Below are positions 1 to 16,522 of a DNA stretch of 39,559 nt, piece after piece. The position numbers and the translations under genes are program-made. Source of the DNA: Bacteroidota bacterium (GTDB taxonomy: Bacteria; Bacteroidota; Bacteroidia; UKL13-3); contig JAZKBU010000014.1 of assembly GCA_040388375.1 (NCBI GenBank), forward strand, positions 1 through 39,559, read 5' to 3'. Each line of letters starts with the position of its first letter. The stretch's first letter is position 1. The notes beneath the pieces were generated by a model. It made no database searches, had not been told where the DNA came from, and saw only the letters and a program-made list of their open reading frames with translations.

Positions 1-424
1 AATTCCAAGAGCCCGAATTCCTATAGCCCGAATTACTATCGCCCGAATTCCTATCGCCCGAATTACTATCGCCCGAATTCCTATCGCCCGAATTACTATC
101 GCCCGAATTACTATCGCCCGAATTCCTATAGCCCGAATTACTATCGCCCGAATTCCTATAGCCCGAATTAACCAATCCTGTATTTTCTTTACCGGTATTA
201 GCAATACCAGATTTAATATATAAATCCTGGTCAAATCCTAAAAAGTATTCGTTTGAAATTACTTTATGATTTATGCACCATTGCAAATTATCATAAATAC
301 ACAAAAGCAATTCAGCTTCATCTTTTACTGTTTTAACTCTACGAAAAGCACTACACGAATCACCCGTATGATTTGATGCTAATTCGATTATTTTGTTTTT
401 TAAATCTTCAAATGTTTGTTTCAT
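1..424 (-). CDS. Pentapeptide-repeat protein, N-terminal part (runs off window)
   Basis: Reading leftward from the ATG at 424-422, the frame stays open to base 1 (141 codons plus one base). About 80 non-repetitive residues (starting MKQTFEDLKNK) lead through IKSGIANTGKENTG into five-residue repeats of the form NSG-YR and NSG-DS. Such NxGxx repeats belong to the pentapeptide-repeat superfamily, which folds into a right-handed quadrilateral beta helix. The gene has no stop in the window; it continues in frame in 39559-39026 if the ends are joined with a 4-bp AATT overlap. A blunt join would put TAA in the frame. It follows the 434-628 gene by 9 bp, so it is the last gene of the leftward early operon. 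The function is unknown; proteins with this plan occur in other phages. Confidence 0.88.
   Translation of the reverse strand, partial: MKQTFEDLKNKIIELASNHTGDSCSAFRRVKTVKDEAELLLCIYDNLQWCINHKVISNEYFLGFDQDLYIKSGIANTGKENTGLVNSGYRNSGDSNSGYRNSGDSNSGDSNSGDRNSGDSNSGDRNSGDSNSGYRNSGSWN
11..170. repeat. 15-bp minisatellite, left array (10 full units plus one partial)
   Basis: Tandem units gcccgaattNctatM, where N is c or a and M is a or c, begin at 11 and repeat every 15 bp until 160. A partial unit covers 161-170, and bases 1-10 are the tail of a variant unit ending ccaaga. The two main forms tend to alternate, giving a 30-bp super-period; one form contains GAATTC. Because 15 is divisible by three, the array adds whole pentapeptides to the minus-strand gene. 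Units are almost identical at DNA level, which points to recent expansion. Confidence 0.97.
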
Positions 425-433: not shown

Positions 434-628
434 TTATTTTTTTAGTTTATTAATTTTATTTACTTCCCTACATACAACCCTCTCAATCCTATCGACTAAG
501 CCCTGATTATTTGGTATTAACGATTGAATGGTAACGGTTAAACTAAGTTCTTCGTGTTTATAGTCGACGTCAATTGTTATTGTGGAGGTTAGGGGTGTTT
601 GAGTATGTAATGAATTTGTTTTAAGCAC
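434..628 (-). CDS. Hypothetical protein, 64 aa
   Basis: Short minus-strand gene with a GTG start at 628, ending 9 bp before the pentapeptide-repeat gene and just downstream of the Gp157-like gene, so it is part of the leftward operon. The protein has a Thr-rich N-terminal half and a basic C terminus (VNKINKLKK). No motif is recognised. The GTG start and small size make the exact start uncertain, though tight packing with both neighbours supports a real gene. Confidence 0.6.
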   Translation of the reverse strand: MLKTNSLHTQTPLTSTITIDVDYKHEELSLTVTIQSLIPNNQGLVDRIERVVCREVNKINKLKK

Positions 629-630
629 GC

Positions 631-1131
631 TTATTTTATTTGAATGTTTTTGTTATAACTGATAGTGGCACCAACAACAGTTCCACCATCTTTTATAGTG
701 TTTTTTATCTTTACTTTGTCGGCCGTTACCGTTGTTTTAGTAACCTTATAGGCATCATTCAATAAACTTAAATCTTCAATTTCTATACTTTCAGATTTTC
801 TAAAGTTGATTTTTATTAAAGGCGTTTCGAGTTGTTCAATTTCAAAAACCTGCATAGCAGTTGAAAGATTAGTTTTAAGTCTATCAATTGCATTGGTGCG
901 AGATTTTTTAAAGTTATTCAATCGTTCAATTTCAAAATCAATCGCTTTGTTTTCAGCCTCTAAATCTTTAATAATAAAACCATAACAAACACCTTTTGTT
1001 TGCAATTGATCTTTGTTTATTTTTATTTCAGTTTCGAGTTCAGGGGTTAATTCACCACCGTTTTCGATTAATGATTCTACTATTTGTAGATACTCGTTTT
1101 GGATATTGTAAAGACTAACTTTCATTTTCAT
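631..1131 (-). CDS. Siphovirus Gp157-family protein
   Basis: The protein matches the plan of the Sipho_Gp157 family (PF05565): an N-terminal LYNIQNEYLQIVE segment, a long central coiled coil (about residues 35-100, rich in E, K, N and Q), then a small beta domain with TPLIKINFRKSESIEI and a GTVVGATI ending. The family is found in phages beside single-strand annealing recombinases, as here; a direct role is not firmly established, although a related streptococcal phage protein has been linked to phage resistance. I chose the ATG at 1131 (MKMKVSLYN); a second ATG lies at 1125, and a longer GTG start at 1167 would add residues not typical of the family. Its start overlaps the end of the RecT-like gene by 17 bp, suggesting translational coupling. 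Confidence 0.85.
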   Translation of the reverse strand: MKMKVSLYNIQNEYLQIVESLIENGGELTPELETEIKINKDQLQTKGVCYGFIIKDLEAENKAIDFEIERLNNFKKSRTNAIDRLKTNLSTAMQVFEIEQLETPLIKINFRKSESIEIEDLSLLNDAYKVTKTTVTADKVKIKNTIKDGGTVVGATISYNKNIQIK

Positions 1132-1846
1132 TATTATTACTGGTAAAGTGCATTTTAATCTCAGCACATAAATTGATTATTGTTTTGTCTTTCTTAACGT
1201 CTTTGTCGAGTGATTTATATTTATCTGTCATTTCTTCAATTGAACTACTGTCAGATAAAAGTTGTTCAGCATCTTTGATACGCTCATCAAGTGTTTTGAA
1301 TATTTCGGGAACGATTGGAGTAACGTCAACATGAGTGGTTTCGATAGTTTTATTTGGCTCATTAAAATCCATTTCTTCAGGAGTGTAAACGGGACCACTA
1401 AACACATCGGGACAATACCACTTAACGCCATTTGAAACCGCACGAGCAAATAACATATTACGAGGGAATTTATCAATATTTTTAGTTAAGGCTTTTTTAG
1501 CATCATCAATTGTAAAAGTGCTATTACCTAATTTTTCTTTACCCTGGTAAAAATCTAATGAGCAAATAGTATCATCTTGCTTAATTACTTTGTAATCGTA
1601 CTTACCACTACCTTTAACTCTACTAGCAATAACGCCAGCGCCAATAGTAACTTTGCCTTGTATAATATGAATGCCCGACATTGATTGAAAAGGCGGTATT
1701 CCTATTTCCTGACCGGCTTGTATTTTTACAAATGCCTGAGCCGCTTGTTTTGTATCGGCAAACATTCCGCTTTCAGCAAAAACTTTTGCCATGTTCATAA
1801 CGTCGTTGGTTGACATTTGATGAATTGTTGTTAGTTGTTGTTCCAT
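1115..1846 (-). CDS. recT: RecT-family single-strand annealing recombinase
   Basis: A 243-residue protein with the hallmarks of phage RecT-type annealing proteins: residues about 40-65 carry AFVKIQAGQEIGIPPFQSM followed by IHIIQGKVTIGAG, then a central beta-rich DNA-binding core, and near residue 145 an NMLFARAVSNGVKWYCPDVF segment with PVYTPEE. The C-terminal 60 residues are acidic and helical. RecT proteins anneal complementary single strands during phage recombination and replication. No partner exonuclease is recognisable nearby. It is followed, with 17 bp overlap, by the Gp157-family gene. Confidence 0.85.
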   Translation of the reverse strand: MEQQLTTIHQMSTNDVMNMAKVFAESGMFADTKQAAQAFVKIQAGQEIGIPPFQSMSGIHIIQGKVTIGAGVIASRVKGSGKYDYKVIKQDDTICSLDFYQGKEKLGNSTFTIDDAKKALTKNIDKFPRNMLFARAVSNGVKWYCPDVFSGPVYTPEEMDFNEPNKTIETTHVDVTPIVPEIFKTLDERIKDAEQLLSDSSSIEEMTDKYKSLDKDVKKDKTIINLCAEIKMHFTSNNNENES

Positions 1847-1879
1847 TTTTTCTTTATATTTGTTTTGGTTTATAATTAG

Positions 1880-1907
1880 GCTCGGTCAGTTTGATCGGGC
1901 TTTTTTT
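1880..1907 (+). terminator. Rho-independent terminator on the plus strand
   Basis: GCTCGGTC (1880-1887), loop AGTTT, GATCGGGC (1893-1900) form an 8-bp stem with two G-T wobbles, followed by seven T. On the minus strand the wobbles become A-C mismatches and there is no T run after the stem, so the signal works only rightward. All genes here are leftward, so it would stop antisense transcription. It sits in the 63-bp gap between the RecT gene and the gene before it. Confidence 0.65.
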
Positions 1908-1909
1908 AA

Positions 1910-2311
1910 TTATAGTGATTTAAATAAAACCGTTAATAGTTCATTAAGTTCTTCGGTTCTTTTAGTAACTGTTTGAGAATTAGTTAACATATTTCCAATA
2001 AACCCTTCTTCAACTTTAACACCGAAATCTTTTGAAATAATGGACTGCCCCGTTAGTTGACAAATCCTTTCTGTAATAGAATTATTTAAATTATATAAAT
2101 TCTCATTTGATTTTAATAGTTCGCTATTAATAGAATTTAGGTTTACTTCTGAATTGCCTTGCTTACAATCTGGCTTAACAGTGGAGTTTAATTTTTCCAT
2201 TAATTCCTGGTTAACAACTCTTTGAAAATTTAATTCAGATACGAGTTTTTTAATAGAATCATTTACTTTTTTAGTAGGGGTTTTGCCGACTGCTTTTTTA
2301 GTTGTTTTCAT
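1910..2311 (-). CDS. Hypothetical coiled-coil protein, 133 aa
   Basis: Lysine-rich N terminus (MKTTKKAVGKTPTKKV) followed by helical stretches rich in N, E, L and S, which look like coiled coil around residues 18-80. There is no transmembrane segment and no recognised domain. It sits upstream of the RecT-like gene in the leftward operon. The basic tail could bind nucleic acid, but that is inference only. Confidence 0.65.
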   Translation of the reverse strand: MKTTKKAVGKTPTKKVNDSIKKLVSELNFQRVVNQELMEKLNSTVKPDCKQGNSEVNLNSINSELLKSNENLYNLNNSITERICQLTGQSIISKDFGVKVEEGFIGNMLTNSQTVTKRTEELNELLTVLFKSL

Positions 2312-2357
2312 ACTCTTTATTGACTTTACCTATTCAGTCGAGGTTTTAGGTTAATTG

Positions 2358-2720
2358 TTAACTTGTTAATTGTTTGTAAATCATTTTTTGTTCATCTACT
2401 ATTTGATTCTTTTTATCGGGATGAATTAGTTTATACTCGTCAGATCCTATTAGGCTTAATAAACCGTTGTAATAAATAGTAGCTTTGTCTTTGTCGAATA
2501 TCCCATCTTTATTAAATGTAGTAATCTGCTCATTTAATTTCCAATATGCAAACGCTTCAATTATGCTAGCGAACTTTTTACTTGAACATTCTAAACGACC
2601 AGATAATAAATTTGTTATAACTCCGGGATAAGTATATCCCATTCTTTTAGCTATAAATCTATACGCTTCTAACGGTACATCTTTATATAATTGTGATATT
2701 TCCGATTTACTTGGTTTCAT
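2358..2720 (-). CDS. Possible HTH protein, 120 aa
   Basis: Residues about 18-50 (AYRFIAKRMGYTYPGVITNL then LSGR) have the spacing of a helix-turn-helix of the Cro/LacI kind: a helix, a Gly turn, then a second helix ending in a basic residue. The remainder is helical and unrecognised. Its ATG overlaps the TGA of the upstream 55-aa gene, indicating translational coupling. A regulatory or DNA-binding role in the early operon is plausible but unproven. Confidence 0.6.
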   Translation of the reverse strand: MKPSKSEISQLYKDVPLEAYRFIAKRMGYTYPGVITNLLSGRLECSSKKFASIIEAFAYWKLNEQITTFNKDGIFDKDKATIYYNGLLSLIGSDEYKLIHPDKKNQIVDEQKMIYKQLTS

Positions 2721-2884
2721 CTCTTATTATTTTGTCTGGTTAAACTTCCTTGATAGCTACTAATAACTCGTTTCAACCTATCAACTTCATTTTGTAGTCT
2801 TGTGTTTTGAGCCAGTAAACTTTCTTTGTTGTTAGCTACGAATACTGATTTTGAAAAGACTTTGGTTAGTTGGAGTTGTTTCAT
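2717..2884 (-). CDS. Small coiled-coil protein, 55 aa
   Basis: Short gene with ATG at 2884-2882, whose start overlaps the TAA of the upstream HNH-domain gene by one base and whose TGA overlaps the ATG of the next gene. This coupling at both ends is the best evidence that it is real. Residues about 19-42 (SLLAQNTRLQNEVDRLKRVI) show a heptad-like leucine/valine pattern typical of a short coiled coil. Function unknown. Confidence 0.7.
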   Translation of the reverse strand: MKQLQLTKVFSKSVFVANNKESLLAQNTRLQNEVDRLKRVISSYQGSLTRQNNKR

Positions 2885-3765
2885 TAGGCTTTGGTTATTT
2901 TGAGGTTGTTGTCTTTAAACCATTGTTTGTAAAACTTATCAGGATCGGTACTTGAACAATTACAATAGTCGTTTCTCATATCGCTAATCCAATCCTCAGT
3001 AGTTTTCTCTTTAGGAATAATCGTAGCCCATTTGCCGTCTTGAAATACGCTATATCCACTAGCTAACAATTTATTACAATATGAAACATAATGAAAAGTT
3101 TCATAACACAAAACACTATTATCTCCATTAGTAGGAATAAATCTAACACCTTGTACAAAACCCCTCTTAATAGCCTCTTTAGTTAAAGCCTCTTTTACTT
3201 CTGATTCGGTGGCTAAACGATTCATACAGTTTATATGATGAAATGCAAAGCTTTCAGAATCATTTGAAATGTGTTTACATTTAATTGTGCCTCCATGCAA
3301 TTTAGTTACCTCAAAAATTAAAACTAATTCTCCAGTATTGTGAAACCAAAATTGATTTTCTTTAAATAAATCCAATTTATAATCAAAACTTTTTTTAGTG
3401 TTTTCTTGTTTAGTTATAATTTGAAGATTACTTAATTTGTTGTTTGTTCTATCTTCATCAATATGGTCAACACACATAAAATCACTTCTATTTGTATGTG
3501 ATAAAAAAGATTCAGAAACTAAATGATGAACTAAATGAGTTTTTTTTAATCCGAGTGCAGAAAGTCTAACTTTAAAATAACCTTGTGGGTTTAAGCTTTG
3601 AGACAACACGCATCCAAAAATTTGTTTTTTAAATTCAGGATTTCTACTATGAGAAACTTCTCTGCTTAAACTTCTAACATTTCCTAAATTAGAAACCTCA
3701 TAAAATCCAAGGTAATTGTATACTGGTAGCCATAATTCGTTAATCAATTTTTCTGTGTTTTCCAT
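2884..3765 (-). CDS. NUMOD4/HNH homing endonuclease domain fused to a phage C-terminal domain
   Basis: Residues about 10-50 (WLPVYNYLGFYEVSNLGNVR) form a NUMOD4 motif, and about 70-125 form an HNH domain: HLVHHLVSESFL, then CVDHIDEDRTNNKLSNLQII. NUMOD4-HNH proteins are site-specific homing endonucleases common in phages. The C-terminal half (about 130-293) is different: EALTKEAIKRGFVQGVRF, then a beta-rich part with YSVFQDGKWATII, resembling a small phage protein of unknown role. I infer that the nuclease either invaded such a gene or was fused to it. The full catalytic set (H, N, H) appears intact. It is co-directional in the early operon, 15 bp from its upstream neighbour. Confidence 0.8.
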   Translation of the reverse strand: MENTEKLINELWLPVYNYLGFYEVSNLGNVRSLSREVSHSRNPEFKKQIFGCVLSQSLNPQGYFKVRLSALGLKKTHLVHHLVSESFLSHTNRSDFMCVDHIDEDRTNNKLSNLQIITKQENTKKSFDYKLDLFKENQFWFHNTGELVLIFEVTKLHGGTIKCKHISNDSESFAFHHINCMNRLATESEVKEALTKEAIKRGFVQGVRFIPTNGDNSVLCYETFHYVSYCNKLLASGYSVFQDGKWATIIPKEKTTEDWISDMRNDYCNCSSTDPDKFYKQWFKDNNLKITKA

Positions 3766-3780
3766 TTTGTTTTGTTTTAA

Positions 3781-3993
3781 TTATTGTTTTAAATTCATAT
3801 TATCAATTAAACTTTGATTGGCAGTATTCAAATGATCTACTTTATTCTGCAATTCTTTACGTTGCTCAATGACTACGAATAGGCAGATACATAATATAAA
3901 TACTATTGACATTGATGCCATCATAATCCACTGGTATAAATTACGCTCGTTAATCACATCTTCAATCGGTTGGTTAAGTAGTTGGGATTTCAT
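3781..3993 (-). CDS. Single-pass membrane protein with coiled coil, 70 aa
   Basis: About 20 polar residues, then a membrane segment (about 22-44, WIMMASMSIVFILCICLFVV), then a charged helical tail with coiled-coil character (EQRKELQNKVDHLN). The topology is one helix with the C-terminal coil on one side. Its place in the early operon argues against a role in lysis; a role at the host membrane is possible, but no family is recognised. Confidence 0.7.
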   Translation of the reverse strand: MKSQLLNQPIEDVINERNLYQWIMMASMSIVFILCICLFVVIEQRKELQNKVDHLNTANQSLIDNMNLKQ

Positions 3994-4004
3994 AGGGTTA
4001 TGGT

Positions 4005-4352
4005 TTAAGGGTTAAATGTTTCTAAAGTTTCTTCTATCATTTCACTAAAACAAGTTCCTCCATTATAAAACGAAGTAACATAACTAATACTTCCATCTTC
4101 ATTTTTATTTAATTCACAAAAGGCATCACCTGAATCGTGCGGCTCTGTATCTTCTGCGTAGTATAATTCTCCTTTAAATACAAAATATTTATCGTAAAAA
4201 TTATCTTTTAAAATATCAAACAAAGATTCTTCTAAATCATGGTAATCTATTTTTTCATTGTTTAATATTCTAATGATAACCATTTCAATTGTATCATCAT
4301 CTAATTTTTCAACTTTCTTTAATATTCCAATATGCAATTCATTATCACTCAT
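4005..4352 (-). CDS. Hypothetical acidic protein, 115 aa
   Basis: A strongly acidic protein (many D and E, especially residues 15-75 and the C terminus EMIEETLETF). There is no membrane segment, signal peptide or known motif. Small acidic early proteins are common in phages and sometimes act as DNA mimics or inhibitors, but nothing in the sequence settles this. It lies in the middle of the leftward operon with short gaps to both neighbours. Confidence 0.65.
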   Translation of the reverse strand: MSDNELHIGILKKVEKLDDDTIEMVIIRILNNEKIDYHDLEESLFDILKDNFYDKYFVFKGELYYAEDTEPHDSGDAFCELNKNEDGSISYVTSFYNGGTCFSEMIEETLETFNP

Positions 4353-4375
4353 CTCGTTTTAGTTTTAAGTTATTA

Positions 4376-4555
4376 TTAATCTTCTATTTCTATTTGGCCG
4401 GAGCCGTGACATTTAGGGCAATCTATTTTATGAGTATCTAAAAGCGTATCTGACCACCAATTGTTATAGATCCAACCATCGCCTTCGCAAAACTCACACT
4501 CAGTGTATTTAACCTCCTTGTCATCGGGCGGTTGTAAGTTTGGACTCTCGTACAT
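4376..4555 (-). CDS. DnaJ-like zinc-finger protein, 59 aa
   Basis: Two CxxCxGxG-type motifs (CEFCEGDG and CPKCHGSG) separated by about 20 residues would bind one zinc ion, as in the DnaJ cysteine-rich region. The J domain is absent, so this is a stand-alone zinc ribbon. I chose the ATG at 4555 (MYESPNLQ), which overlaps the TAA of the upstream gene; a longer start at 4639 would add 28 hydrophobic residues that are out-of-frame coding for the upstream gene. Confidence 0.75.
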   Translation of the reverse strand: MYESPNLQPPDDKEVKYTECEFCEGDGWIYNNWWSDTLLDTHKIDCPKCHGSGQIEIED

Positions 4556-4794
4556 TATCTTATTGATATAGTTATTAATGTTAAAATTGATGCCAACGCT
4601 ATTGATGATGTAAACATAAGTAATCCTATTAGTAGCCAATATCTGTTATAGCGTTTTACAATTTCGATAGAGGTTTCTTTAACATTAAATGGTTTTTCTA
4701 AATTCAAACTCATTCCAAATACTAAAGAATCGTTTTCATCTGTTACATATAGTTTTGATGGGCTATCGTGTTTTAATGTTTCGGGTATATTCAT
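4555..4794 (-). CDS. Small membrane protein, 79 aa
   Basis: A hydrophilic N-terminal half is followed by one strong membrane segment near the C terminus (about 52-75, YWLLIGLLMFTSSIALASIL). This gives a tail-anchored layout. Its ATG overlaps the stop of the HTH gene upstream and its stop overlaps the next start, so the three genes are translationally coupled. No family recognised. Confidence 0.7.
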   Translation of the reverse strand: MNIPETLKHDSPSKLYVTDENDSLVFGMSLNLEKPFNVKETSIEIVKRYNRYWLLIGLLMFTSSIALASILTLITISIR

Positions 4795-5283: not shown

Positions 5284-5787
5284 ATGGCTGCAACAAAAGG
5301 CAATAAATGGTGGATGCTTCGTGCAAAACACGGTAGAGATAAATTATTTAAAACTTCCGATCTATTGTGGGATGCTGCATTGGAGTATTTTAACCATACA
5401 GATAGTCGTAAATGGACTAAAAAAGATTGGGTAGGTAAAGATGCGCACGAAGTAGAAAGGGAAACGGAAACGCCATATACTATTAGCGGATTGTGTCTTT
5501 ATTTGGATTGCTCCCGTAGTTTTTTTGCAGAATTTAAGAAGGCTTTGAATGAAAAAAACGACAAAGAGTCAAAAGATTTTTTGTTAGTCATTACACGTAT
5601 AGAGAATATTATTTTCACTCAAAAGATTGAGGGAGCTGCTGTTGGGGCTTTTAATGCAAATATTGTGGCTATGGAATTAGGATTAAAGCAACAAACCGAA
5701 ACAACTACAACCGCTATTAACTACAACGCCGAACTTTCAAAAGACGAAATAAAAGCTATTTCTAAGGGCTTGGATGAAAAATATTAA
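5284..5787 (+). CDS. terS: Terminase small subunit (GP3_package-like)
   Basis: 167 residues with the pattern of the P22 gp3-type packaging protein family (PF16677): KWWMLRAKHGRDKLF near the N terminus, LWDAALEYF, a TISGLCLYLDCSRSFFAEFK helix-turn region around residues 67-86, and FTQKIEGAAVGAFNANIVAM around 110-130 with LGLKQQ after it. Small terminase recognises the packaging site and hands the DNA to the large subunit. Its TAA overlaps the ATG of terL by one base. It is the first gene of the rightward region, behind a good promoter. Confidence 0.88.
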   Translation: MAATKGNKWWMLRAKHGRDKLFKTSDLLWDAALEYFNHTDSRKWTKKDWVGKDAHEVERETETPYTISGLCLYLDCSRSFFAEFKKALNEKNDKESKDFLLVITRIENIIFTQKIEGAAVGAFNANIVAMELGLKQQTETTTTAINYNAELSKDEIKAISKGLDEKY

Positions 5788-7250
5788 TGACTCCAGAATA
5801 CATAAAAGAACTTAAGATAGCAAAATATCGCTGCCTAACCTCAACACTATTTTTTTCCCGGTACTTCTTTAAAAAACGATTCAGTCGTAAATTTGTCTTA
5901 AATAAACATCATGTAATTATTTGTGATGTACTGGATCGGGTTATTAAAGGTGAATTAAAAAAAGTAATTTTCAACATAGCTCCCAGGTACAGTAAAACTG
6001 AAATAGCAGTTAAAAACTTTATCGCAAATGGACTTGGAGTAAATCCATCGGCCAGGTTTATCCATTTATCTTATTCGGATGATTTAGCACTCGATAATAG
6101 TGATGAGGTCAGAGAATTAGTAAAGAGTCCTGAATATCAGGAAATGTTTCCGAAGGTAAAAGTAAAGCCAAATTCTGACAGCAAAAAGAAATGGTACACA
6201 ACTGAAAGCGGCGGTGTTTACGCTACAAGCGCAGCCGGTCAAGTAACGGGTTTTGGAGCCGGTAAAGTTGATGATGAAGATTCTGAAGATTTAGATAATT
6301 GGTTAGTTGGTAGTGACGGCCAATTATTTGGCGGCGCTTTAATTATTGATGATCCAATTAAGCCAGATGATGCAGATAGCGAATTAATAAGGGAACGCGT
6401 AAACGAAAAATATACAAGTACTTTAAAAAACCGTGTAAATAGTAGGAATACGCCAATAATTATTATCATGCAGCGATTACATGATAACGATTTATCTGGT
6501 TATTTAATGGCGAATGAACCGGGCGAATGGACTGTAATAAGTTTGCCTTGTATTGAAAATTATGGTTTAGAAAATGAATGTGCTTTATGGGAATTTAAAC
6601 ACACGTTAACTGAATTAAAAGCAATGGAGAAAGTGGCAGAAAAAGCCAATAGTCCATCGTTTTTAAGACAGTATATGCAAAACCCACAACCATTAAAGGG
6701 CTTTATGTTTCCTTCAAATATGTTGAGGTATTATAAGCCGATTGACACCATAACAGCTAAATTTGAAACAAGTATAGGTTATGCGGATATAGCAGACGAA
6801 GGCGAAGATAATTTAAGCGCGCCAATCGGCAGGAATATTGGTAAAGATATTTATATTACTGATGTTGTTTTTCGTAGAGATAATACAACTATTACGCTGC
6901 CATTGGTTGCCGATATGATTAAGCGAAATAGAACTACTTACATGCGAGTTGAAAGTAATAACATGGGCGCAATGTTTAACCGGGATTTAACTAAATTGGT
7001 ACCAAATACAAAATGTGTGCCAGCTCATTCAAGTACCAATAAATTTACCCGTATTTTTAACGATGCAGGATTTATAATTAACAATTGTGTATTTATCCAT
7101 CCCGACTATCAAAGTGAGGAATATAAAACGTTTATGAAGGAATTAACGAGTTATTTATCTAATGGCAAAACTAAGCGAGACGATGCCCCTGATAGTATGA
7201 GTGGTTTAGTGATGTTTATTCGTGCAATGTTGCCAAAGTATTATATTTAA
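5787..7250 (+). CDS. terL: Terminase large subunit
   Basis: 487 residues, a normal length. The ATPase part has a divergent Walker A (APRYSKTE, about 65-72; the usual G-K pair is S-K), the GQVTGFGAG motif (about 151-159), Walker B ALIIDD (184-189) and the coupling segment IIIIMQRLHDNDL (about 224-235). The nuclease part has an RNase H-like set: GYADIADEG (about D334 and D337), RVESNNMG (E389) and DDAP (about D466). It cuts concatemeric DNA and drives it into the prohead through the portal. Coupled to terS by a one-base overlap. Confidence 0.93.
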   Translation: MTPEYIKELKIAKYRCLTSTLFFSRYFFKKRFSRKFVLNKHHVIICDVLDRVIKGELKKVIFNIAPRYSKTEIAVKNFIANGLGVNPSARFIHLSYSDDLALDNSDEVRELVKSPEYQEMFPKVKVKPNSDSKKKWYTTESGGVYATSAAGQVTGFGAGKVDDEDSEDLDNWLVGSDGQLFGGALIIDDPIKPDDADSELIRERVNEKYTSTLKNRVNSRNTPIIIIMQRLHDNDLSGYLMANEPGEWTVISLPCIENYGLENECALWEFKHTLTELKAMEKVAEKANSPSFLRQYMQNPQPLKGFMFPSNMLRYYKPIDTITAKFETSIGYADIADEGEDNLSAPIGRNIGKDIYITDVVFRRDNTTITLPLVADMIKRNRTTYMRVESNNMGAMFNRDLTKLVPNTKCVPAHSSTNKFTRIFNDAGFIINNCVFIHPDYQSEEYKTFMKELTSYLSNGKTKRDDAPDSMSGLVMFIRAMLPKYYI

Positions 7251-7325
7251 TTCCTATATTTTGCTTGTTAGTTAAAATTATATTCGTATATTGCAACGCT
7301 TATTCGATTATGAAAAACTTAAAAT

Positions 7326-7396
7326 CCCATTTTTTACAATGCCAATTGCTAACACTTAGCTGTCGGATAAGCCTTTGTAATTAATGGGTATTTTTA
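7326..7396 (+). other. Long imperfect stem-loop before the HNH gene
   Basis: 7326-7339 (CCCATTTTTTACAA) pairs with 7375-7388 at 12 of 14 positions. Inside the loop a perfect small hairpin, GCTAA-CAC-TTAGC, lies at 7348-7360. TATTTTTATTT follows, so it may act as a terminator after terL or as a structure shielding the start of the HNH gene at 7401. The rest of 7251-7400 has only weak promoter-like matches and a 24-codon ORF that I do not call. Confidence 0.5.
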
Positions 7397-7400
7397 TTTA

Positions 7401-7853
7401 ATGAAAGTTATAAAATCAGAAACTATATTCTACACATCAATTCAAATAAAACAAATAGTTGAATATAAAATAAGAAGTAAGGTAAATACGGCAAATAGAA
7501 GGTTTCAAGAGTCAAGAATAAGTATACATGATATAATTGTTTTATTAGAGAAATATAAGTTTAGGTGTATTTACTGTGATGATGTTTTAAAACCTAATAC
7601 ATGGCAATTAGATCATTTTTATTCGAAAGCAACAGGAGGAAGAAATAAGCATGATAATTTAGCGCCATCCTGTAAATGGTGTAATATGATGAAGGGAGCG
7701 TTGGATGGTTATGCTTTTATAAATAAGTGTAAATTGGTATCAGAAAATAACTTTTTTAAGAAAATATTAAATCAAGACGTATTTAATCATAAAGAAAAAA
7801 CAGAAAAACAATTAATTGACATGGAAAAAAGATATAATAAAATTTACAAATAA
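7401..7853 (+). CDS. HNH endonuclease, 150 aa
   Basis: Residues about 52-100 form a zinc-stabilised HNH domain: KYKFRCIYCDDVL (first CxxC), WQLDHFYSKATGGR (catalytic DH), then HDNLAPSCKWCNMMKG (Asn and second CxxC). The N-terminal 50 residues are basic and helical. HNH proteins beside terminase can assist packaging cleavage, as HK97 gp74 does, but free-standing homing nucleases look similar. The separate position behind a stem-loop, and the loose spacing compared with its neighbours, slightly favour a homing origin. Confidence 0.85.
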   Translation: MKVIKSETIFYTSIQIKQIVEYKIRSKVNTANRRFQESRISIHDIIVLLEKYKFRCIYCDDVLKPNTWQLDHFYSKATGGRNKHDNLAPSCKWCNMMKGALDGYAFINKCKLVSENNFFKKILNQDVFNHKEKTEKQLIDMEKRYNKIYK

Positions 7854-7860
7854 TTTAATT

Positions 7861-8304
7861 ATGATAAGCTCAAACGAATTAAGGATAGGGAATATCGTTT
7901 TAGGGAGCGCTAAAATTATCTCTAGAGATTTAATACAAATTAATACAGAAGCTATTAAAACACCATTTGTATTGAGTAAAATACCGCTTGGAATACTGTT
8001 TAAAGACAGTAAATGCGAAAAGTATTTTGATCCAATCCCATTAACCGAATCAATATTATTGCAAATAGGAACTAAAAGCAAGCAATTTTCGTCATATGAA
8101 AATGAATATAAATGGATTATTGAATTAAACAATCAACAAGCATTAGTGGCTTGTAATAACGATAATTCAATAAGTTTTTATTCAGAGGGCGCAATTTATG
8201 GTCATTGTGTAGTAATCAAATATTTACATGATTTACAAAATCAATATTATTTTAATAACGAAAAAACAGAACTACCAATAAACATTAATACTTTGAAGAT
8301 ATGA
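7861..8304 (+). CDS. Bacteroidetes phage protein of unknown function, 147 aa
   Basis: Starts SSNELRIGNIV and contains FDPIPLTESILLQIG and, near the C terminus, VVIKYLHDLQNQYYF. This layout (LRIGN... PIPLTEEIL... YLHxLQNxYF) is familiar from many small proteins of Bacteroidetes phages and prophages, all of unknown function. I use the ATG at 7861; an upstream ATG at 7816 would overlap the HNH gene. Its TGA overlaps the ATG of the next gene. Confidence 0.75.
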   Translation: MISSNELRIGNIVLGSAKIISRDLIQINTEAIKTPFVLSKIPLGILFKDSKCEKYFDPIPLTESILLQIGTKSKQFSSYENEYKWIIELNNQQALVACNNDNSISFYSEGAIYGHCVVIKYLHDLQNQYYFNNEKTELPININTLKI

Positions 8305-8480
8305 TTTTGTGGATAAAAGAAAAATTAAGCGATTTATTGTTTTTCGGCGAAATGGTATTAACTATAATTAGCGCATTAATGTTAGTCGGAATAGTAATCG
8401 CTTTTATTTACGCTATAATATTGGGCGTTCCTGTAGCTATTTTTATTTGGTTATGCGATTCACTAGCAAAGATGTTTTAA
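8301..8480 (+). CDS. Small membrane protein with two helices, 59 aa
   Basis: Short ORF coupled to the gene before it by an ATGA overlap. Two hydrophobic segments (about 17-40, TIISALMLVGIVIAFIYAII, and 41-52) suggest a helical hairpin in the membrane. No family is recognised. It begins a run of four tiny genes between terminase and portal. Confidence 0.65.
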   Translation: MILWIKEKLSDLLFFGEMVLTIISALMLVGIVIAFIYAIILGVPVAIFIWLCDSLAKMF

Positions 8481-8481
8481 A

Positions 8482-8598
8482 ATGAGTAAAATGGTAATCA
8501 TAGCAATAATATTAAAGATAGTTTTATTGACTACTTTATTGGTTGCATCAGGTTATTTTATAGCAAGAATTATTAAATTTTTAATTAAGTTTTTATGA
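8482..8598 (+). CDS. Membrane mini-protein, 38 aa
   Basis: A single hydrophobic helix (about 4-27, MVIIAIILKIVLLTTLLVA) with a basic C terminus. It starts one base after the preceding stop, and its TGA overlaps the ATG of the next gene, which supports translation. Function unknown. Confidence 0.5.
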   Translation: MSKMVIIAIILKIVLLTTLLVASGYFIARIIKFLIKFL

Positions 8599-8762
8599 AT
8601 AACGAATTTGAATGCCGGTTTACTTTTGATTTAAAGCCATACGCTGAGCCAATTTATGAAGTATTTAGCGATGGTAGTAGGATTCCGATTAACTTCGAAT
8701 TATCAAAAGAGGCTTATAGTGACAACGAAGAAAATATAATTAAGTTTGATAATGTCAAATAA
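8595..8762 (+). CDS. Small hypothetical protein, 55 aa
   Basis: Soluble, mildly acidic protein beginning MNNEFECRFTFDLKPY. The start overlaps the previous stop by four bases and the end overlaps the next start. The repeated coupling suggests a real gene. No motif is recognised. Confidence 0.6.
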   Translation: MNNEFECRFTFDLKPYAEPIYEVFSDGSRIPINFELSKEAYSDNEENIIKFDNVK

Positions 8763-8829
8763 ATTTAAACTCGATTTATTAAGCCTTTTAATTTCAATAA
8801 TAGCTTTAATTATCGCTATTATTCTTTGA
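8752..8829 (+). CDS. Possible 25-aa membrane peptide antisense to portal 3' end
   Basis: ATG at 8752 overlaps the end of the 55-aa gene. The peptide is a short basic head followed by one hydrophobic helix (LLSLLISIIALIIAIIL). Its last 11 bases overlap the 3' end of the convergent portal gene. It may be a real single-helix peptide or chance in AT-rich DNA. Confidence 0.35.
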   Translation: MSNKFKLDLLSLLISIIALIIAIIL

Positions 8830-10057
8830 TTTTACCAAACTGATTCTCTAATCTTTGTTTTGCCTCGGCTGGCAATATAATCAATCCGTCAACTAACACT
8901 TTTAATGCAGCGCTTACACTCGCAAACGTAGCCGCCTCAGCAACTTTATCCGGTTGTAAATATGGTAAATGGGTGTAATCTAAAATTAACCGTTTGCCTT
9001 TAGGAATACTGAAATCTTTATCAGAAGTTAATTTCTGACATAATCCATCGGCATACGGCACAACCGTGTCGTTATGAGTTTGCAATAACCCGCTTTTTAA
9101 ATTCTCATAAGTAGAATTAATAAATAGATTCACATTAACTCCAAATGCGCTTAATATCCGGGAAAAATTATCTGTTATTTGCTCTCTTAATTGTAATTTA
9201 TCAGTAGGATAGCTAAAAGGCGACCAACTAACTTTATTTGAAGTGATTAATATTTTACTTTGACCTTCCTCAACTCCATGTATTTGGCGGTGCAATCTTT
9301 CAGCCTCTATTTTTTCTTCAGGAGTAGTTGGTAATTCACCCATTGAATCTTTACTCGGTTCTTTACTTAGCGCTCCAATAGCTCCCTTTTCGCCACTAAT
9401 CGAGTTAAGATATTGATAAGCTACGTCCGTATTTGATATCGGCCACTTCAAAGATTTTAACTTTGATTTACCTACTAATGGGCTATTTGCATCACCTATT
9501 TTAGACCAGATAATAACATTTGTATCAATGTTTCGTGTTTTATTATCTTCGTCAAGTTCATAATGTTTAATAATCCCTGACAATTCAACTTGATCGTAAA
9601 TCTTACCGGTTAATACTGGCTTTAAACTTGACGGATCAATATTAAATAAAGCCTTTGGAACACTAAGTAAATCACTTGGTTTGTTTTTATAAATAAATTG
9701 ATTGCCGTGCAATTGCAACTGAACAGCGTATTGTTTAAGCCATTCGTTTTGAGATTGTAATATATTAGGCTGTTTTAATAGTATTTCTAATTCTTTTGGC
9801 AACGATTCTTTAACCAAAGTCTTTTCATCTTCAAGCATAAACACACCATTTGAAAGCATTGAAGCCACTTTATCAATAGGGATATTTACTTCAGATAGCG
9901 AATTGTAAACCTCGTATGGAACCTGGGTATTTATGTATAAAGAACCTTTATTTACCTGGCTATAATTCTCGTTAAACCAGTTTTTCCATCTGTTTTTTTT
10001 ACCAAACAGCCTCGAAAAACTATTAGAAATCTGACTTAAAAGGCTATTTTCGTTCAT
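8819..10057 (-). CDS. Portal protein (HK97 family), inverted in the late region
   Basis: 412 residues with the features of HK97-type portals (PF04860): an N-terminal YEVYNSLSEVNIPIDKVASM wing, WLKQYAVQLQLHGNQFIYK, a central LKWPISNTDVAYQYLNSISG, and the downstream QLREQITDNFSRILSAFGVN then FINSTYENLKSGLLQ stem region. The dodecameric portal is the DNA entry channel and binds terminase. It is the only leftward gene between terminase and the lysis genes, and its 3' end meets the small rightward genes tail to tail. Upstream (10058-10259) is a bidirectional promoter region, so it has its own leftward transcription. No truncation is seen. Confidence 0.9.
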   Translation of the reverse strand: MNENSLLSQISNSFSRLFGKKNRWKNWFNENYSQVNKGSLYINTQVPYEVYNSLSEVNIPIDKVASMLSNGVFMLEDEKTLVKESLPKELEILLKQPNILQSQNEWLKQYAVQLQLHGNQFIYKNKPSDLLSVPKALFNIDPSSLKPVLTGKIYDQVELSGIIKHYELDEDNKTRNIDTNVIIWSKIGDANSPLVGKSKLKSLKWPISNTDVAYQYLNSISGEKGAIGALSKEPSKDSMGELPTTPEEKIEAERLHRQIHGVEEGQSKILITSNKVSWSPFSYPTDKLQLREQITDNFSRILSAFGVNVNLFINSTYENLKSGLLQTHNDTVVPYADGLCQKLTSDKDFSIPKGKRLILDYTHLPYLQPDKVAEAATFASVSAALKVLVDGLIILPAEAKQRLENQFGKIKE

Positions 10058-10076
10058 TAGATTTTAGTATTTATTG

Positions 10077-10084
10077 CAAATATA
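10077..10084 (-). promoter_or_regulatory. Leftward -7 element for the portal gene
   Basis: TATATTTG on the minus strand (10084-10077) matches TAnnTTTG exactly, about 20 bp before the portal ATG. No clear TTTG lies at the right distance; TTTC at 10101-10098 is 13 bp away. The leader would be only about a dozen bases. Confidence 0.45.
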
Positions 10085-10103
10085 AAAATATTTATTAGAA
10101 ATG

Positions 10104-10135
10104 TTTGCATATATCACAAATACGATTTATATTTG
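10104..10135 (+). promoter_or_regulatory. Rightward promoter for protease and capsid operon
   Basis: TTTG at 10104-10107 and TATATTTG at 10128-10135 are separated by 20 bp, an ideal Bacteroidetes promoter. Start of transcription is expected near 10142, about 30 bases before the 29-aa ORF. This promoter compensates for the inverted portal gene, which cuts the capsid genes off from the terminase transcript. Confidence 0.7.
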
Positions 10136-10173
10136 ACCAAAGTTTTTGCGATAAATACGTAACACTTTATAAA

Positions 10174-10263
10174 ATGGCAACTAAATTAACTGCATCTGAA
10201 ATTAAAAAATTGAAGTCTGTTAAGGCTATCAAGGTTACTACACAGGAGGTGGTTAACAAATGA
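10174..10263 (+). CDS. Possible 29-aa leader peptide
   Basis: ATG at 10174, basic peptide (MATKLTASEIKKLKSVKAIK...), ending with a TGA that overlaps the ATG of the protease gene. The strong ribosome binding site for the protease lies inside it. It could be a leader ORF coupling translation to the protease. Codons are sensible, but the short length keeps confidence moderate. Confidence 0.5.
   Translation: MATKLTASEIKKLKSVKAIKVTTQEVVNK
10244..10250 (+). promoter_or_regulatory. Strong Shine-Dalgarno AGGAGGT before the protease
   Basis: A textbook AGGAGGT lies 9 bases before the protease ATG at 10260. Most genes in this window lack any such sequence, as is usual in Bacteroidetes, so this fixes the protease start and marks it as unusual. 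Confidence 0.7.
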
Positions 10264-11069
10264 TAGATAAATCTAAGTTCGCCAATAAGCAAGATTTAAT
10301 TAAGCATGTTGTTGCTAATAAATCAGAATTAACCTCACTAAAAAAATCAGTAACAAAATTTTCAGATTGTATTTTACATGATGATACTTTTAAAATTGAG
10401 GCAAATAAAGTTATTTCTAATTTTTCAAGTGATGACCTGGTAAATGGAATTATCAAACGTACAATTGTAGGTAACACTTATGGATGGATGGATTCACATG
10501 ATGACGTTCATATTAAAGGTATTTTTACTAAATCTATTTCTGAAAATAAAGACAGTCAATTTCATTTGCATGATCATTTATATCAATTAGCCGCAAAAGT
10601 TGGTACTCCCATTAAAATCTATGAGCAAAATATAAATGTTACTGATTTAGGTTTAAATAAAATAGGTTTTGCAACTTGTTTACTAATGGATACCGAGATC
10701 AAGAAGTCATACAATGCTATGATTTTTGAAGAGTATTTGACTAAGCAAATTAATCAGCATTCGGTAGGAATGGTATACGTAAAATTATATTTATGTGTAA
10801 ATGATGCTGAATATAAAGAAGAGTTTGCGAACTGGAATACTTACAAAGGCTCTGTTATTAATTTAGATAAAGCTGAAGAAAATGGTTATTTCTGGGCAGT
10901 TACAGAGGCTAAGTTAAAAGAAATTAGCTGCGTATTATTGGGTAGTAACGAGCTTACGCCTACATTAAATGGAAAATCTGAGCCGCTAACAAGCACTCAT
11001 AAAAATAACGAGCCGGATAAAGCCACTCAACAAAAGCAAAAATTATCAATCAATCAATCAATTTACTAA
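10260..11069 (+). CDS. HK97-family prohead protease
   Basis: 269 residues. The core (about 63-210) has the order of HK97 prohead proteases: IIKRTIVGNTYGWMDSHDDV, HLHDH (about 102-106, catalytic His), QHSVGMVYVK (Ser168 expected nucleophile), and LKEISCVLLGSNELTPTL. The enzyme removes the delta domain of the capsid protein and itself during maturation. Here it is a separate gene directly before the capsid, with a 60-residue N-terminal extension and a polar Gln/Lys-rich tail. It has an exceptional Shine-Dalgarno sequence. Confidence 0.87.
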   Translation: MIDKSKFANKQDLIKHVVANKSELTSLKKSVTKFSDCILHDDTFKIEANKVISNFSSDDLVNGIIKRTIVGNTYGWMDSHDDVHIKGIFTKSISENKDSQFHLHDHLYQLAAKVGTPIKIYEQNINVTDLGLNKIGFATCLLMDTEIKKSYNAMIFEEYLTKQINQHSVGMVYVKLYLCVNDAEYKEEFANWNTYKGSVINLDKAEENGYFWAVTEAKLKEISCVLLGSNELTPTLNGKSEPLTSTHKNNEPDKATQQKQKLSINQSIY

Positions 11070-11083
11070 CAAAAACAACTATA

Positions 11084-12520
11084 ATGAAAAAGAACCCTAA
11101 CATTCGTTTTAAAGATGTAAAACGTCACAACAAAATCAAATTAAACGGCTATTTTGCCTTATCAATCGTATTTGCGATATTATGTGTAGGTATTTATAAT
11201 GCTGATTTTTCTAACATTCAAATATCTGATGCCGCTGGTGTTTCTATGGCAATTTTACCGGTATTTATGGTAGGGACTACATTTAAAGAATTAACTGGAG
11301 CTGATTTAGTAACGTTTAAAGCAGAGGCAACGGCTGAGCAATTAGGTGAATACTACGAAGCCTTAAATAAATTCAATCGTAATAAATTAGAAGAGTTAAT
11401 TAAAGCTAATGCTTCAAAAGAAGATATTGATAAATTAATTGAAGCCTTAAAAGGAACTCCTGATGAGAATTTACAGAAAATGAAGGATGAAGTTGTTCGT
11501 ATCGCAACTGAGTTAAAGGCCCTTAAAGAAAACGGAATCACTCTATCTAAAGACGCCACTTCTCAAATTAAGGCATGGACAAAAGAAAACGAAAATGCCA
11601 TTAAACAAATTAGATCAGGACAAAAGGCAGGATTAACGCCAATGGTTATTAAGTTAAATAGCCCTATGACTCCTTCAAATACCTATAACGGATCAGCTTA
11701 TTTACCTCAACCAGAGTTTCAGTCAGAAGTAAATGAAATCGTTAGAGTTCAGCCAACTTTTTGGGATTACATCAAAAAAGGCCGCACTATGTCTGCAGCT
11801 TATGTTTGGGTTAATAAAAAGAATCCTGAAGGAGCTGCAGGATTTATTGCACCAGGCGTTATTAAGCCAGGTATATCTTTTGAAATTGCAACAGAAATAT
11901 CTAATGCAAAAAAAATTGCAGTATCTGAAAAATGTTCTACGGAATTATTAGAAGATATTGCTGGTATGCAATCTTGGATTGAACAAGAATTGACATACCA
12001 ATTGAAGCAAGAAATGAATAGTAAATTAATGACCGGTACAGTTTCTTCAACGGTTCCGGCTGGTATTCAAACTATTTCAACAACATATTCACTAACAACT
12101 GTAAAAACTACTAATCCTAATAACTGGGATGCGATTAGAGCTTCAGTAGCTCAATTACGTTCTGGGAATTTACAAGGAACAGTAACGGCTTTTGTGAATC
12201 CAATTGATAACGCTAACATGGCTTTAACAAAAGCACAATCGCAAGGTCAATTATTTGTACCAGGTGATTCAGGTGCTGTTATTGTTGAAGATAACAATGT
12301 ACCAGTTGGATATGTTCAAATTGCTTTATTAGATTATTACAAAGTTTTAATCTATAAAGATTTAACATTAACTTTTGGTTTAGATGGCGAAGATTTTTCT
12401 CACAATTTAATTACCGGTATTGCTGAAATGCGTATTCACCAATTCTTTAGCGAGAATCACACAGGAGCGTTTATTTACGATACTTTTGCGAATATCAAAA
12501 CTGCAATTAACCAAGCATAA
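11084..12520 (+). CDS. Major capsid protein (HK97 fold) with hydrophobic N terminus
   Basis: 478 residues. The C-terminal two thirds fit an HK97-fold capsid: LPQPEFQSEVNEIVRVQPTF, an E-loop-like YVWVNKKNPEGAAGFIAPG, an ISNAKKIAVSEKCSTELLEDI helix region, and a P-domain with IVEDNNVPVGYVQIALLDYY. Residues about 75-165 are a helical delta-like domain that the protease would remove. Before it, residues 22-40 (GYFALSIVFAILCVGIYNA) are a good transmembrane helix with basic residues in front and a second hydrophobic patch at 52-64. That N terminus is atypical for a capsid protein and may tether assembling shells to the membrane. Confidence 0.9.
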   Translation: MKKNPNIRFKDVKRHNKIKLNGYFALSIVFAILCVGIYNADFSNIQISDAAGVSMAILPVFMVGTTFKELTGADLVTFKAEATAEQLGEYYEALNKFNRNKLEELIKANASKEDIDKLIEALKGTPDENLQKMKDEVVRIATELKALKENGITLSKDATSQIKAWTKENENAIKQIRSGQKAGLTPMVIKLNSPMTPSNTYNGSAYLPQPEFQSEVNEIVRVQPTFWDYIKKGRTMSAAYVWVNKKNPEGAAGFIAPGVIKPGISFEIATEISNAKKIAVSEKCSTELLEDIAGMQSWIEQELTYQLKQEMNSKLMTGTVSSTVPAGIQTISTTYSLTTVKTTNPNNWDAIRASVAQLRSGNLQGTVTAFVNPIDNANMALTKAQSQGQLFVPGDSGAVIVEDNNVPVGYVQIALLDYYKVLIYKDLTLTFGLDGEDFSHNLITGIAEMRIHQFFSENHTGAFIYDTFANIKTAINQA

Positions 12521-12526
12521 TTTAAT

Positions 12527-12555
12527 AAACTCCCTTCTTAATTGAGGGGAGTTTT
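12527..12555 (+). terminator. Hairpin after capsid gene, partial terminator
   Basis: AAACTCCC (12527-12534) pairs perfectly with GGGAGTTT (12547-12554) over a 12-base loop, followed by T and A. The T run is mostly inside the stem, so it is likely leaky or a 3'-end stabiliser, letting capsid mRNA accumulate over the genes downstream. Confidence 0.6.
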
Positions 12556-12571
12556 AAATAAAACCAAATCA

Positions 12572-12760
12572 ATGAAAGTTATTATAACAAAACAAGGAGC
12601 TGCATTAGAGTGCAACCATTGGACAGAAGGACAAGAAATAGATTGTCATGAAAATGTAGGTAATCATTTCATTGATCAAGGTTATGCGGTTATGCCAGGT
12701 GATGAAGTTGAAGTTAAAAAAGAAGATGAAGTTAAACAACCTAAAACAAAAAAGAAATAA
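12572..12760 (+). CDS. Small capsid-adjacent protein, 62 aa
   Basis: Starts MKVIITKQGAALECNHWTEG and continues EIDCHENVGNHFIDQGYAVM, then a highly charged KKEDEVKQPKTKKK tail. This layout (short beta region, GxEID...HFIDQGYA) is like small proteins often encoded just after the capsid gene in HK97-type phages. I prefer the ATG at 12572; a TTG at 12542 lies inside the hairpin. Its TAA overlaps the ATG of the next gene. Confidence 0.7.
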   Translation: MKVIITKQGAALECNHWTEGQEIDCHENVGNHFIDQGYAVMPGDEVEVKKEDEVKQPKTKKK

Positions 12761-13524
12761 TGAAAAAAATATTAGCAATATCGTGTATTTTATCGTTTGG
12801 CTTAAATGCTCAATCGGTTAGTACAATGATAAAAAGCGCTGTTACTATGACAAATAGCACGGCAACGACGGCAACATTACAAACGATTGTAGCGCATCAA
12901 AATGTTTGCTTACAGGCAGTAGTAACTAAATCAACTGGTACAATTGCGGGAACTGTTACCGTGGCAGGATCAATTGATGGGACAAATTACATAACTTTTG
13001 GCGATTCAGCTTATTTAGCTGACGTTACAACTAATACTCATTTATGGGCATTAACCAACAACGATTATTTGTATTATAAAATGACTTTTTTAGGAACTGG
13101 CACAATGGTAGCTACTCCTGTTGGAAAAGTTTATACAAATGGATCGGGAAGTAACCATTATGTAACAAATATGCTTAGTCCGTTTAGTGCAGTAAAAGAT
13201 ACGACTGACAATACAAGTACGAGCTATGTTAGTCTTGAAGTAACTAAATGGTATGATGATATTGCAATTCAATCAGTAGTTACTAAAATATCAGGAACAG
13301 TTGCTGGCACAGTAACGTTACAAGGTTCATTAGATGGAACAAATTACAATACGGTTAATTCGTCTTATGCAAACGTAACGAGCTATGTGCCAACAAACGT
13401 TACAGCTAATACTAAAATATTTGTTGTAACAGGTTCACCTTATCGTTATTATAGATTAAGTTATGCCGGTGCTGGTACAATGTCAGCATCACATAGAGGT
13501 TATGTATTGCCAAATAAAAAGTAA
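12760..13524 (+). CDS. Secreted-type structural protein with internal duplication, 254 aa
   Basis: Begins with a clear Sec signal peptide (MKKILAISCILSFGLNAQS, cut expected after NA or AQS). The rest is a duplicated beta domain: copy one about 50-125 with VVTKSTGTIAGTVTVAGSID, copy two about 170-250 with VVTKISGTVAGTVTLQGSLD, both followed by a GTNY motif and ending in TPVGKVY or SHRGYV. Such domains suit capsid decoration or fibre proteins, but a signal peptide would send the protein to the periplasm or outer surface. It is coupled to the gene before it by one base. Confidence 0.72.
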   Translation: MKKILAISCILSFGLNAQSVSTMIKSAVTMTNSTATTATLQTIVAHQNVCLQAVVTKSTGTIAGTVTVAGSIDGTNYITFGDSAYLADVTTNTHLWALTNNDYLYYKMTFLGTGTMVATPVGKVYTNGSGSNHYVTNMLSPFSAVKDTTDNTSTSYVSLEVTKWYDDIAIQSVVTKISGTVAGTVTLQGSLDGTNYNTVNSSYANVTSYVPTNVTANTKIFVVTGSPYRYYRLSYAGAGTMSASHRGYVLPNKK

Positions 13525-13532
13525 TTAAATAT

Positions 13533-13604
13533 TGCGCCTTGGAGAAGAGGTATCTCGCTAGACTCATTATCTAGAGGTGACTGGGTCGGTACCAGTAGGC
13601 GCTA
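13533..13604 (+). tRNA. tRNA-like cloverleaf, anticodon CAU
   Basis: 72 bases fold into a full cloverleaf. Acceptor GCGCCT (13534-13539) pairs with AGGCGC (13597-13602), with a T-T at the end. D stem GAGA/TCTC has loop AGAGGTA containing GG. Anticodon stem CTAGA/TCTAG has loop CTCATTA, anticodon CAT at 13565-13567, with U before it. T stem ACTGG/CCAGT has loop GTCGGTA. All four stems are perfect and U8 is present, but the T loop lacks TTC and A58, and base 37 is U instead of a purine. CCA is not encoded. It could be a divergent tRNA-Met/Ile2 or a tRNA mimic; it ends 12 bases before an HNH gene. Confidence 0.6.
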
Positions 13605-13616
13605 CAAAGAAATACA

Positions 13617-14000
13617 ATGTATAAAAAAGTTAGAATAGATAAATACACAACAATTGATGAGCATAGAAACATTATGCAAAATCATTTAGGTAGAAAACTT
13701 TCTTTTAATGAAATAGTGCGTCATAAGGATAACGATAAAAGTAATAACGATTTATCTAATTTAGAGGTAATTACAAGGGCTAATCACATAAGGCACCATA
13801 TAAAAAATGGAGATATGCCATATGTTCCAATGTCAAAAGAAAAAAGAGTAAGGGCAAATTATAAATTAACAAAACTAAAACCGTGTGAAGTAATTTACAT
13901 AAAATATAGTGATAAAAAGCCTAAAGAGTTGATGCAAGAATTTAATATATCAAAATTCTGTGTAAGCAGAATAAGATTAAATAAAAGTTTTGCAAATTAA
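13617..14000 (+). CDS. Free-standing HNH homing endonuclease, 127 aa
   Basis: Residues about 15-65 form an HNH_3-type domain: HRNIMQNHLGRKLSFNEIVR, then HKDNDKSNNDLSNLEVITRA and NHIRHH. The C-terminal part (about 85-125, KLKPCEVIYIKY... ELMQEFNISKFCVSRIRL) looks like a helix-turn-helix for DNA binding, as in phage homing nucleases. It interrupts the head-to-neck gene order between the duplicated structural gene and the adaptor, and it follows the tRNA-like element closely, suggesting the two moved as a cassette. Confidence 0.87.
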   Translation: MYKKVRIDKYTTIDEHRNIMQNHLGRKLSFNEIVRHKDNDKSNNDLSNLEVITRANHIRHHIKNGDMPYVPMSKEKRVRANYKLTKLKPCEVIYIKYSDKKPKELMQEFNISKFCVSRIRLNKSFAN

Positions 14001-14011
14001 GAAAAACGTAA

Positions 14012-15471: not shown

Positions 15472-15490
15472 CCTTTTAAAACTTAAAACA

Positions 15491-16450: not shown

Positions 16451-16472
16451 TTTTTTAAATTTAATTACAAAT

Positions 16473-16508
16473 AAAAAAGCCTATCTAATAATTTAGGTAG
16501 GCTTTTTT
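16473..16508 (+). terminator. Strong rho-independent terminator after tail tube gene
   Basis: A-run, GCCTATCTAA (16479-16488), short loop, TTAGGTAGGC (16493-16502), then seven or more T. The 10-bp stem has one G-T wobble and the A/T flanks extend it. No obvious promoter follows before 16523, so downstream tail genes depend on read-through. Confidence 0.85.
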
Positions 16509-16522
16509 TAATACAAAATAAA

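Follow-up and report, generated by a model that had tools for sequence, protein, structure and literature searches.

The window (the whole stretch of DNA that was analysed, 39,559 bp) is the entire contig C14 of a draft bacterial assembly, G000, which comprises 34 contigs and 3.97 Mb. It carries the gene set of a tailed phage, including terminases, a portal, a capsid, a tape-measure-like candidate, an endolysin, RecT-like and Gp157/Gam-like proteins and a replication initiator, and each of its two ends lies inside a reading frame built from pentapeptide repeats. The main features are as follows:

1..424, minus strand: 5' half of the repeat gene, with an ATG at 424, an N-terminal domain of about 75 aa (424-200) and an NTG/NSG array that runs off the left end
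434..4794, minus strand: early arm upstream of the repeat gene, with Gp157/Gam-like (631-1167), RecT-like (1115-1846), HNH (2884-3765) and other genes
5284..31541, plus strand: late arm, with small and large terminase, capsid, tape-measure-like candidate and endolysin
5284..5787, plus strand: small terminase, matching PDB 3p9a (DNA-packaging protein gp3)
8819-10057, minus strand: portal, inside the otherwise plus-strand late arm
31538..38847, minus strand: early arm downstream of the repeat gene, across the junction, with ORF118 (38491-38847), the replication initiator (37658-38491) and others
39026..39559, minus strand: 3' half of the repeat gene, with an NSGxx array (39355-39559) followed by a 109-aa C-terminal domain (39026-39355) of PHROG 14105

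The small terminase matches 3p9a at 1.1e-19 and PF16677 at 6.2e-22. The gp3 protein of 3p9a is one that we take to be the pac-recognition subunit of P22, and relatedness to it suggests headful packaging, with DNA that would be permuted and terminally redundant. The reversed portal has a counterpart in G058, where the portal homologue is likewise reversed relative to the large terminase, TerL. The contig also contains four HNH or other endonuclease candidates in 39 kb (2884-3765, 7401-7853, 13617-14000 and 34856-35257), a GDSL-type esterase or lipase (PF13472) at 28994-29662 that adjoins the tail and lysis genes, and a tRNA-Met (CAT) called by ARAGORN at 13533-13605, for which Rfam gave no tRNA at its gathering score. 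A search of 58 related genomes for the window TerL returned only its own copy, and the late-region DNA had zero matches in phage records.

On the minus strand, the frame 424..2 runs from its ATG through the N-terminal domain into NSGxx repeats and is still open at the left end, and the frame 39559..39026 begins within NSGxx repeats and reaches a stop. At both ends the array consists of near-identical 15-bp units that encode NSGxx pentapeptides on this strand, with best Tandem Repeats Finder scores of 262 (left) and 359 (right), and PF01469 (Pentapeptide_2) is matched in both halves (6.8e-15 and 6.6e-15; 55.1 and 55.2 bits against a cut-off of 26.4). Across the whole assembly, a 24-base pattern for the array, allowing at most 3 mismatches, had 23 matches (22 exact, one with 2 mismatches), all of them on the minus strand of C14 within 11-169 and 39356-39559; the reversed pattern, used as a control, had none, and every one of the three PF01469 matches in the assembly is on C14. 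An earlier reading of the sequence only had placed the two end frames in the same repeat phase, and reading the two minus frames bears this out. It had also described a separate 77-residue ORF (39026-39259) and edge fragments, which are present.

That sequence-only reading further claimed that direct joining of the ends creates an immediate stop, which it does, and that a 4-bp AATT overlap gives a gene of 318 codons. The arithmetic of the latter is correct (954 nt, that is, 317 aa plus a stop), and such a join keeps both frame and register; the exact length, however, is a minimum or an arbitrary choice, and it is unlikely that the ends overlap by exactly 4 bp in a gene of just 317 aa that retains all its units. 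Wherever an array of 15-bp units is cut twice, an overlap somewhere between 0 and 14 bp will bring the repeats back into register, so the 4-bp overlap is not evidence of the exact join. An overlap of 1 bp likewise leaves an open frame (957 nt), yet it breaks the five-residue register. Moreover, the right end halts within a 145-bp tract of perfect 30-bp periodicity, one similarly split contig (G090, described below) lacks some 101 bp of array that its sister, which is an assembly too, contains, and the sole end overlap of another (G059), of 3 bp, yields the out-of-register sequence NLNSG. The repeat gene has at least 26 NxGxx units, and the true array is probably longer.

Two stretches of the array bear on why the contig ends where it does:

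101..170, minus strand: left-array stretch with 55-mers (starts 101-116) that recur in the right array (16 shared 55-mers)
39415..39559, minus strand: perfect 30-bp periodic tract of 145 bp, from repeat analysis, where the contig stops

At k=55 there are 30 distinct repeated k-mers in C14, with starts only at 101-116 or 39415-39505, which is to say only in the array, and 16 of these are common to both contig ends. The repeats at k=33 are likewise confined to the array, and those at k=77 and k=99 to the right tract. A value of 55 is a likely assembler setting, because a second phage contig of the same assembly (C17, 42,372 bp) overlaps itself by exactly 55 bp at its ends and contains no further repeated 55-mer, as would be expected of a closed circle in a k=55 de Bruijn assembly. 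The ends of C14 overlap by only 4 bp, as opposed to 55 bp in C17, which by itself does not establish closure, and the array offers a reason for the difference. At the left end the longest repeated prefix is 19 bp, so the stop there is not explained by the visible repeats, and unseen array units must be assumed.

By far the most likely sequence of events is that the map is circular, either as permuted DNA from headful packaging or as a phage that persists as a circle, and that the assembler opened this circle inside a gene whose centre is a near-identical 15-bp tandem array. Shared stretches longer than the k-mer would tangle the assembly graph and end the contig at that point, probably with the loss of some array units at the break. 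PMC9238414 reports that long reads exceed assembled data sets 26 times in pentapeptide repeats; loss of repeats on assembly is, to that extent, already known as a general effect, and the case of C14 agrees with it.

The organisation of the genome can be followed across the junction. The minus-strand early arms (434-4794 and 31538-38847) unite only if the ends join, and then face the plus-strand late arm, and the GC skew, mostly positive in the late arm, has a negative sign to either side of the junction; a single circular map is supported by this continuity of base skew and of coding strand. A tblastn search with early-arm proteins against the loci around TerL and the C-terminal-domain relatives did not bring the two sides of the junction together, and neither did one with window ORFs on 18 replication-initiator loci. 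Sipho_Gp157 was matched in 0 of 15 records, and the control genomes gave no match either. In the relative G058 (large terminase 77%) the initiator is 3.4 kb upstream of TerL, in the opposite orientation relative to TerL from that in the window, which makes for a weak comparison; G058 has neither a PF01469 match nor an end overlap. The phage on C17 has a replication initiator that is 51% identical to that of the window (37658-38491) over 148 aa, and its genes include an integrase-like PHROG, a ParB-like protein and a helicase/DNA-methyltransferase-like protein. Upstream of the C17 initiator are ParB-like and helicase/methyltransferase genes and one of a PHROG without an assigned function, and not RecT.

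Tandem or concatemeric prophage copies in the chromosome would be expected to give the same contig, since the graph would look circular without a free circle, and the host genome does encode tyrosine integrases on other contigs. This origin is nevertheless very unlikely. The tyrosine integrase family PF00589 was not matched on C14, and a scan of 35 other ORFs with PHROGs contained no integrase, the ORFs outside that scan being mostly shorter ones. A host flank is not apparent on C14, and two end-proximal stretches, searched as DNA, are without a second near-identical copy in G000 (one 66% match, on C17).

The same signature occurs in other phages. A search with an alignment of five C-terminal domains gave at least 73 viral loci and 15 genome loci; some of the 73 listed viral loci are near-duplicates, so that they do not represent independent events. 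Among the matches listed, the frame extends past the array-side contig edge in 23 of the 73 viral loci, and likewise in three of the 15 genome loci. The C-terminal domain lies within 500 bp of the array-side contig end in 25 of the 73 listed viral loci, and within 500 bp of the other end in one, where about 2.4 would be expected under uniform placement. Loci without run-off and with at least three units account for 48 of the 73 among the matches listed.

A check of both contig ends by PF01469 search was made on 24 IMG/VR contigs, namely those of the 23 run-off viral loci and L136, and 15 of the 24 records had a match. Three contigs match PF01469 at each of their ends, on a single strand (G059, 43,593 bp; G090, 141,367 bp; G096, 40,496 bp). 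A fourth (G103, 33,524 bp) has PF01469 at one end, and its other end opens directly with the C-terminal domain, on the same strand. The same gene is thus split over both ends in four of the 24, and in all four the N-terminal half at the opposite end was read directly. G059 was a biased draw, as it was found via the C-terminal domain and then put in the alignment. The two-ended signature is absent in 20 of the 24, including five of the nine contigs longer than 20 kb, which may be fragments. Seven contigs (G091, G092, G093, G094, G099, G101 and G104) were without an array in the opposite 3 kb, and the remaining 13 were judged from the PF01469 search alone.

One of the four split contigs has an intact counterpart. 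The ends of G090 are 99.98% identical over 4721 bp and 99.95% identical over 5499 bp to a sister locus, L129, in which the gene is whole, and they meet L129 at 4721 and 4823, though lower-identity placements are also present within the 75-bp periodicity. Because the ends of G090 meet within the intact gene, they are adjacent in a near-identical genome, and it is at this break that the approximately 101 bp of array are missing.

In G103 (L159, 679-1470 and 4801-5025) there are two pentapeptide gene copies, of which one is intact and the other is divided between the contig ends. Paralogues within one phage therefore exist, and the second, intact copy lies near a contig end; C14 might similarly be a linear piece whose halves belong to two paralogous repeat genes, each running into unassembled DNA, a reading to which the end overlap of just 4 bp also lends itself. 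However, the array is found on no other contig of the assembly, there is a single start half and a single C-terminal half, both on the same strand and with common 55-mers, and the pattern is repeated in four other contigs, all of which makes two separate genes highly improbable. It is barely credible that the gene marks a physical terminus of the virion DNA, with a fixed end or packaging start within the array, even though several contigs end within it, since the repeats themselves account for the breaks, most loci do not run off (the 48 of 73 listed above), and the gene is unbroken in the sister of G090.

C14 is thus very probably a tailed-phage genome, complete or almost so, within a draft bacterial assembly, with a circular map that was opened inside the repeat gene. 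That one gene spans both ends, as first proposed, agrees with the lack of the array anywhere else in the assembly, the 16 shared 55-mers, the four further two-ended contigs and the intact sister of one of these. The accompanying proposal of a circular or permuted map draws on the same evidence together with the continuity of strand and skew and the gp3-like small terminase; the junction itself is one that we infer.

The gene family consists of a variable N-terminus, an NxGxx array and the C-terminal domain of PHROG 14105, and is known but uncharacterised. PHROG 14105 matches the right half over profile positions 104-279 of 297 (3.9e-50) and the left array from position 102 (1.7e-13), and is not matched by the N-terminal part of the window protein. 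The sole match of the N-terminal 75 aa is a weak one to phrog_1720 (0.016), and relatives of this domain were found in no phage record and, in IMG/VR, only in G059. In 64 host-family genomes, the only phrog_14105 was the window's own. A DUF7666-like motif, detected with a crude pattern, is present in 35 of 59 homologues that do not run off and have at least eight units, and most of the others have a very short N-terminus; PF24703 was found in both of the two homologues scanned with Pfam.

A start, a repeat body and a known C-terminal cap domain had been predicted for the joined gene. All three are present, but the last is known only as part of a PHROG that has no assigned function and was without a significant Pfam, NCBIfam or PDB match in the searches made. 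Pfam searches of 56 members of the C-terminal domain gave nothing convincing (best 0.0044). Modelled alone, this domain reaches a pLDDT of 93.2; a PDB search with its model gave nothing at or below E 0.001 (best 2.8), and none of the 241 chains aligned had a Z of 2 or more. A longer model likewise matched nothing in PDB at the same E threshold; two chains aligned to it at Z 2.6 and 2.1, and its strongest BFVD match had an E of 0.0049. The absence of structural matches does not establish a new fold.

The array itself was modelled with low confidence in a test for a square solenoid (a right-handed quadrilateral beta-helix), with a pLDDT under 50 for most residues. Its charge, calculated from the residues alone, is -3 over 26 units in the window, and 68 arrays have a mean of -0.11 per unit (range -0.75 to 0.4). 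DNA mimicry by the array is not favoured, because it is nearly neutral. As a guess, which is tenable if rather more apt to be wrong than right, the gene may encode an early phage protein in which a putative pentapeptide solenoid holds two end domains apart, as a rigid spacer whose length can be adjusted. Among the literature matches listed, judged by title and the start of the abstract, nothing concerned the gene family except PMC9238414, which treats repeats generally; DUF7666 was absent from the literature searched, and searches for phage with 'pentapeptide repeat' and NTG, and for phage with 'right-handed quadrilateral', gave no match.

At the DNA level the array is highly uniform. The Asn-Ser-Gly codons are identical in 25 of 25 NSG units of the window (AAT-TCG-GGC), and in 24 other genes TCG accounts for 8.9% of 595 serine codons and GGC for 17.8% of 500 glycine codons. 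Across 70 arrays of relatives, the triplet entropy within an array averages 0.87 bits, compared with 3.17 for randomly dealt units, a contrast that may be affected by related arrays among the 70. Such low entropy suggests that arrays would grow by duplicating their own units. In 11 pairs of loci with identical flanks (300 bp upstream and 400 bp downstream), the number of units differs in four and is equal in seven; the counts include 11 and 39 units in L142 and L144, and 21, 14 and 15 in L081, L084 and L085. Assembly collapse may be part of the cause of these differences. It is possible, but doubtful, that the array is a length-hypervariable, frame-safe coding minisatellite, and that such heterogeneity, and not just the use of short reads, blocks closure of the contig. 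Repeat expansion and contraction within one population would in that case alter the number of solenoid turns between the folded ends.

The observation that contigs often break in this array is ordinary in kind, and provides a useful rule for spotting complete phage genomes. When the ends of a contig hold the two parts of a single tandem-repeat gene on the same strand, the contig can represent a whole circular phage genome, even without a usable overlap, and G059, G090, G096 and G103 are candidates for re-examination as possibly complete. Such arrays also split one gene into separately annotated pieces, which masks the true length of the protein, and in this case the protein includes a conserved, folded C-terminal domain that is unnamed and has been assigned no role in the libraries searched.

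The window protein resembles Qnr and MfpA in having five-residue repeats. Qnr and MfpA belong to PF00805 and are DNA mimics, and DNA-mimic pentapeptide proteins of this kind have a strongly acidic surface. The window protein, in contrast, has NxGxx repeats of PF01469, an array that is nearly neutral and, by sequence charge, not acidic as in the DNA mimics, and an extra folded C-terminal domain. Another comparison is with G059 (IMGVR_UViG_3300023106_000016), which is like the window in both its N-terminal and C-terminal domains and is split at both contig ends. The 5' half of its gene is 59% identical to that of the window with the array included and 43% for the N-terminal domain alone. It differs in the serine codon of the array (AGC, as opposed to TCG in the window), and has no tblastn match to the window terminase, portal or capsid (E 1e-4), with six weak matches to other ORFs. 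Homologues with PHROG 14105 often have a DUF7666-like N-terminus, whereas the 75-aa N-terminal domain of the window protein is of another kind. One of these is WMU95219.1 of Clostridioides phage AR1086-1, which has a DUF7666-like N-terminus (by eye) and a C-terminal domain about 42% identical to that of the window, and in which the N-terminal domain, NxGxx array and C-terminal domain form a single intact ORF in a record marked circular.
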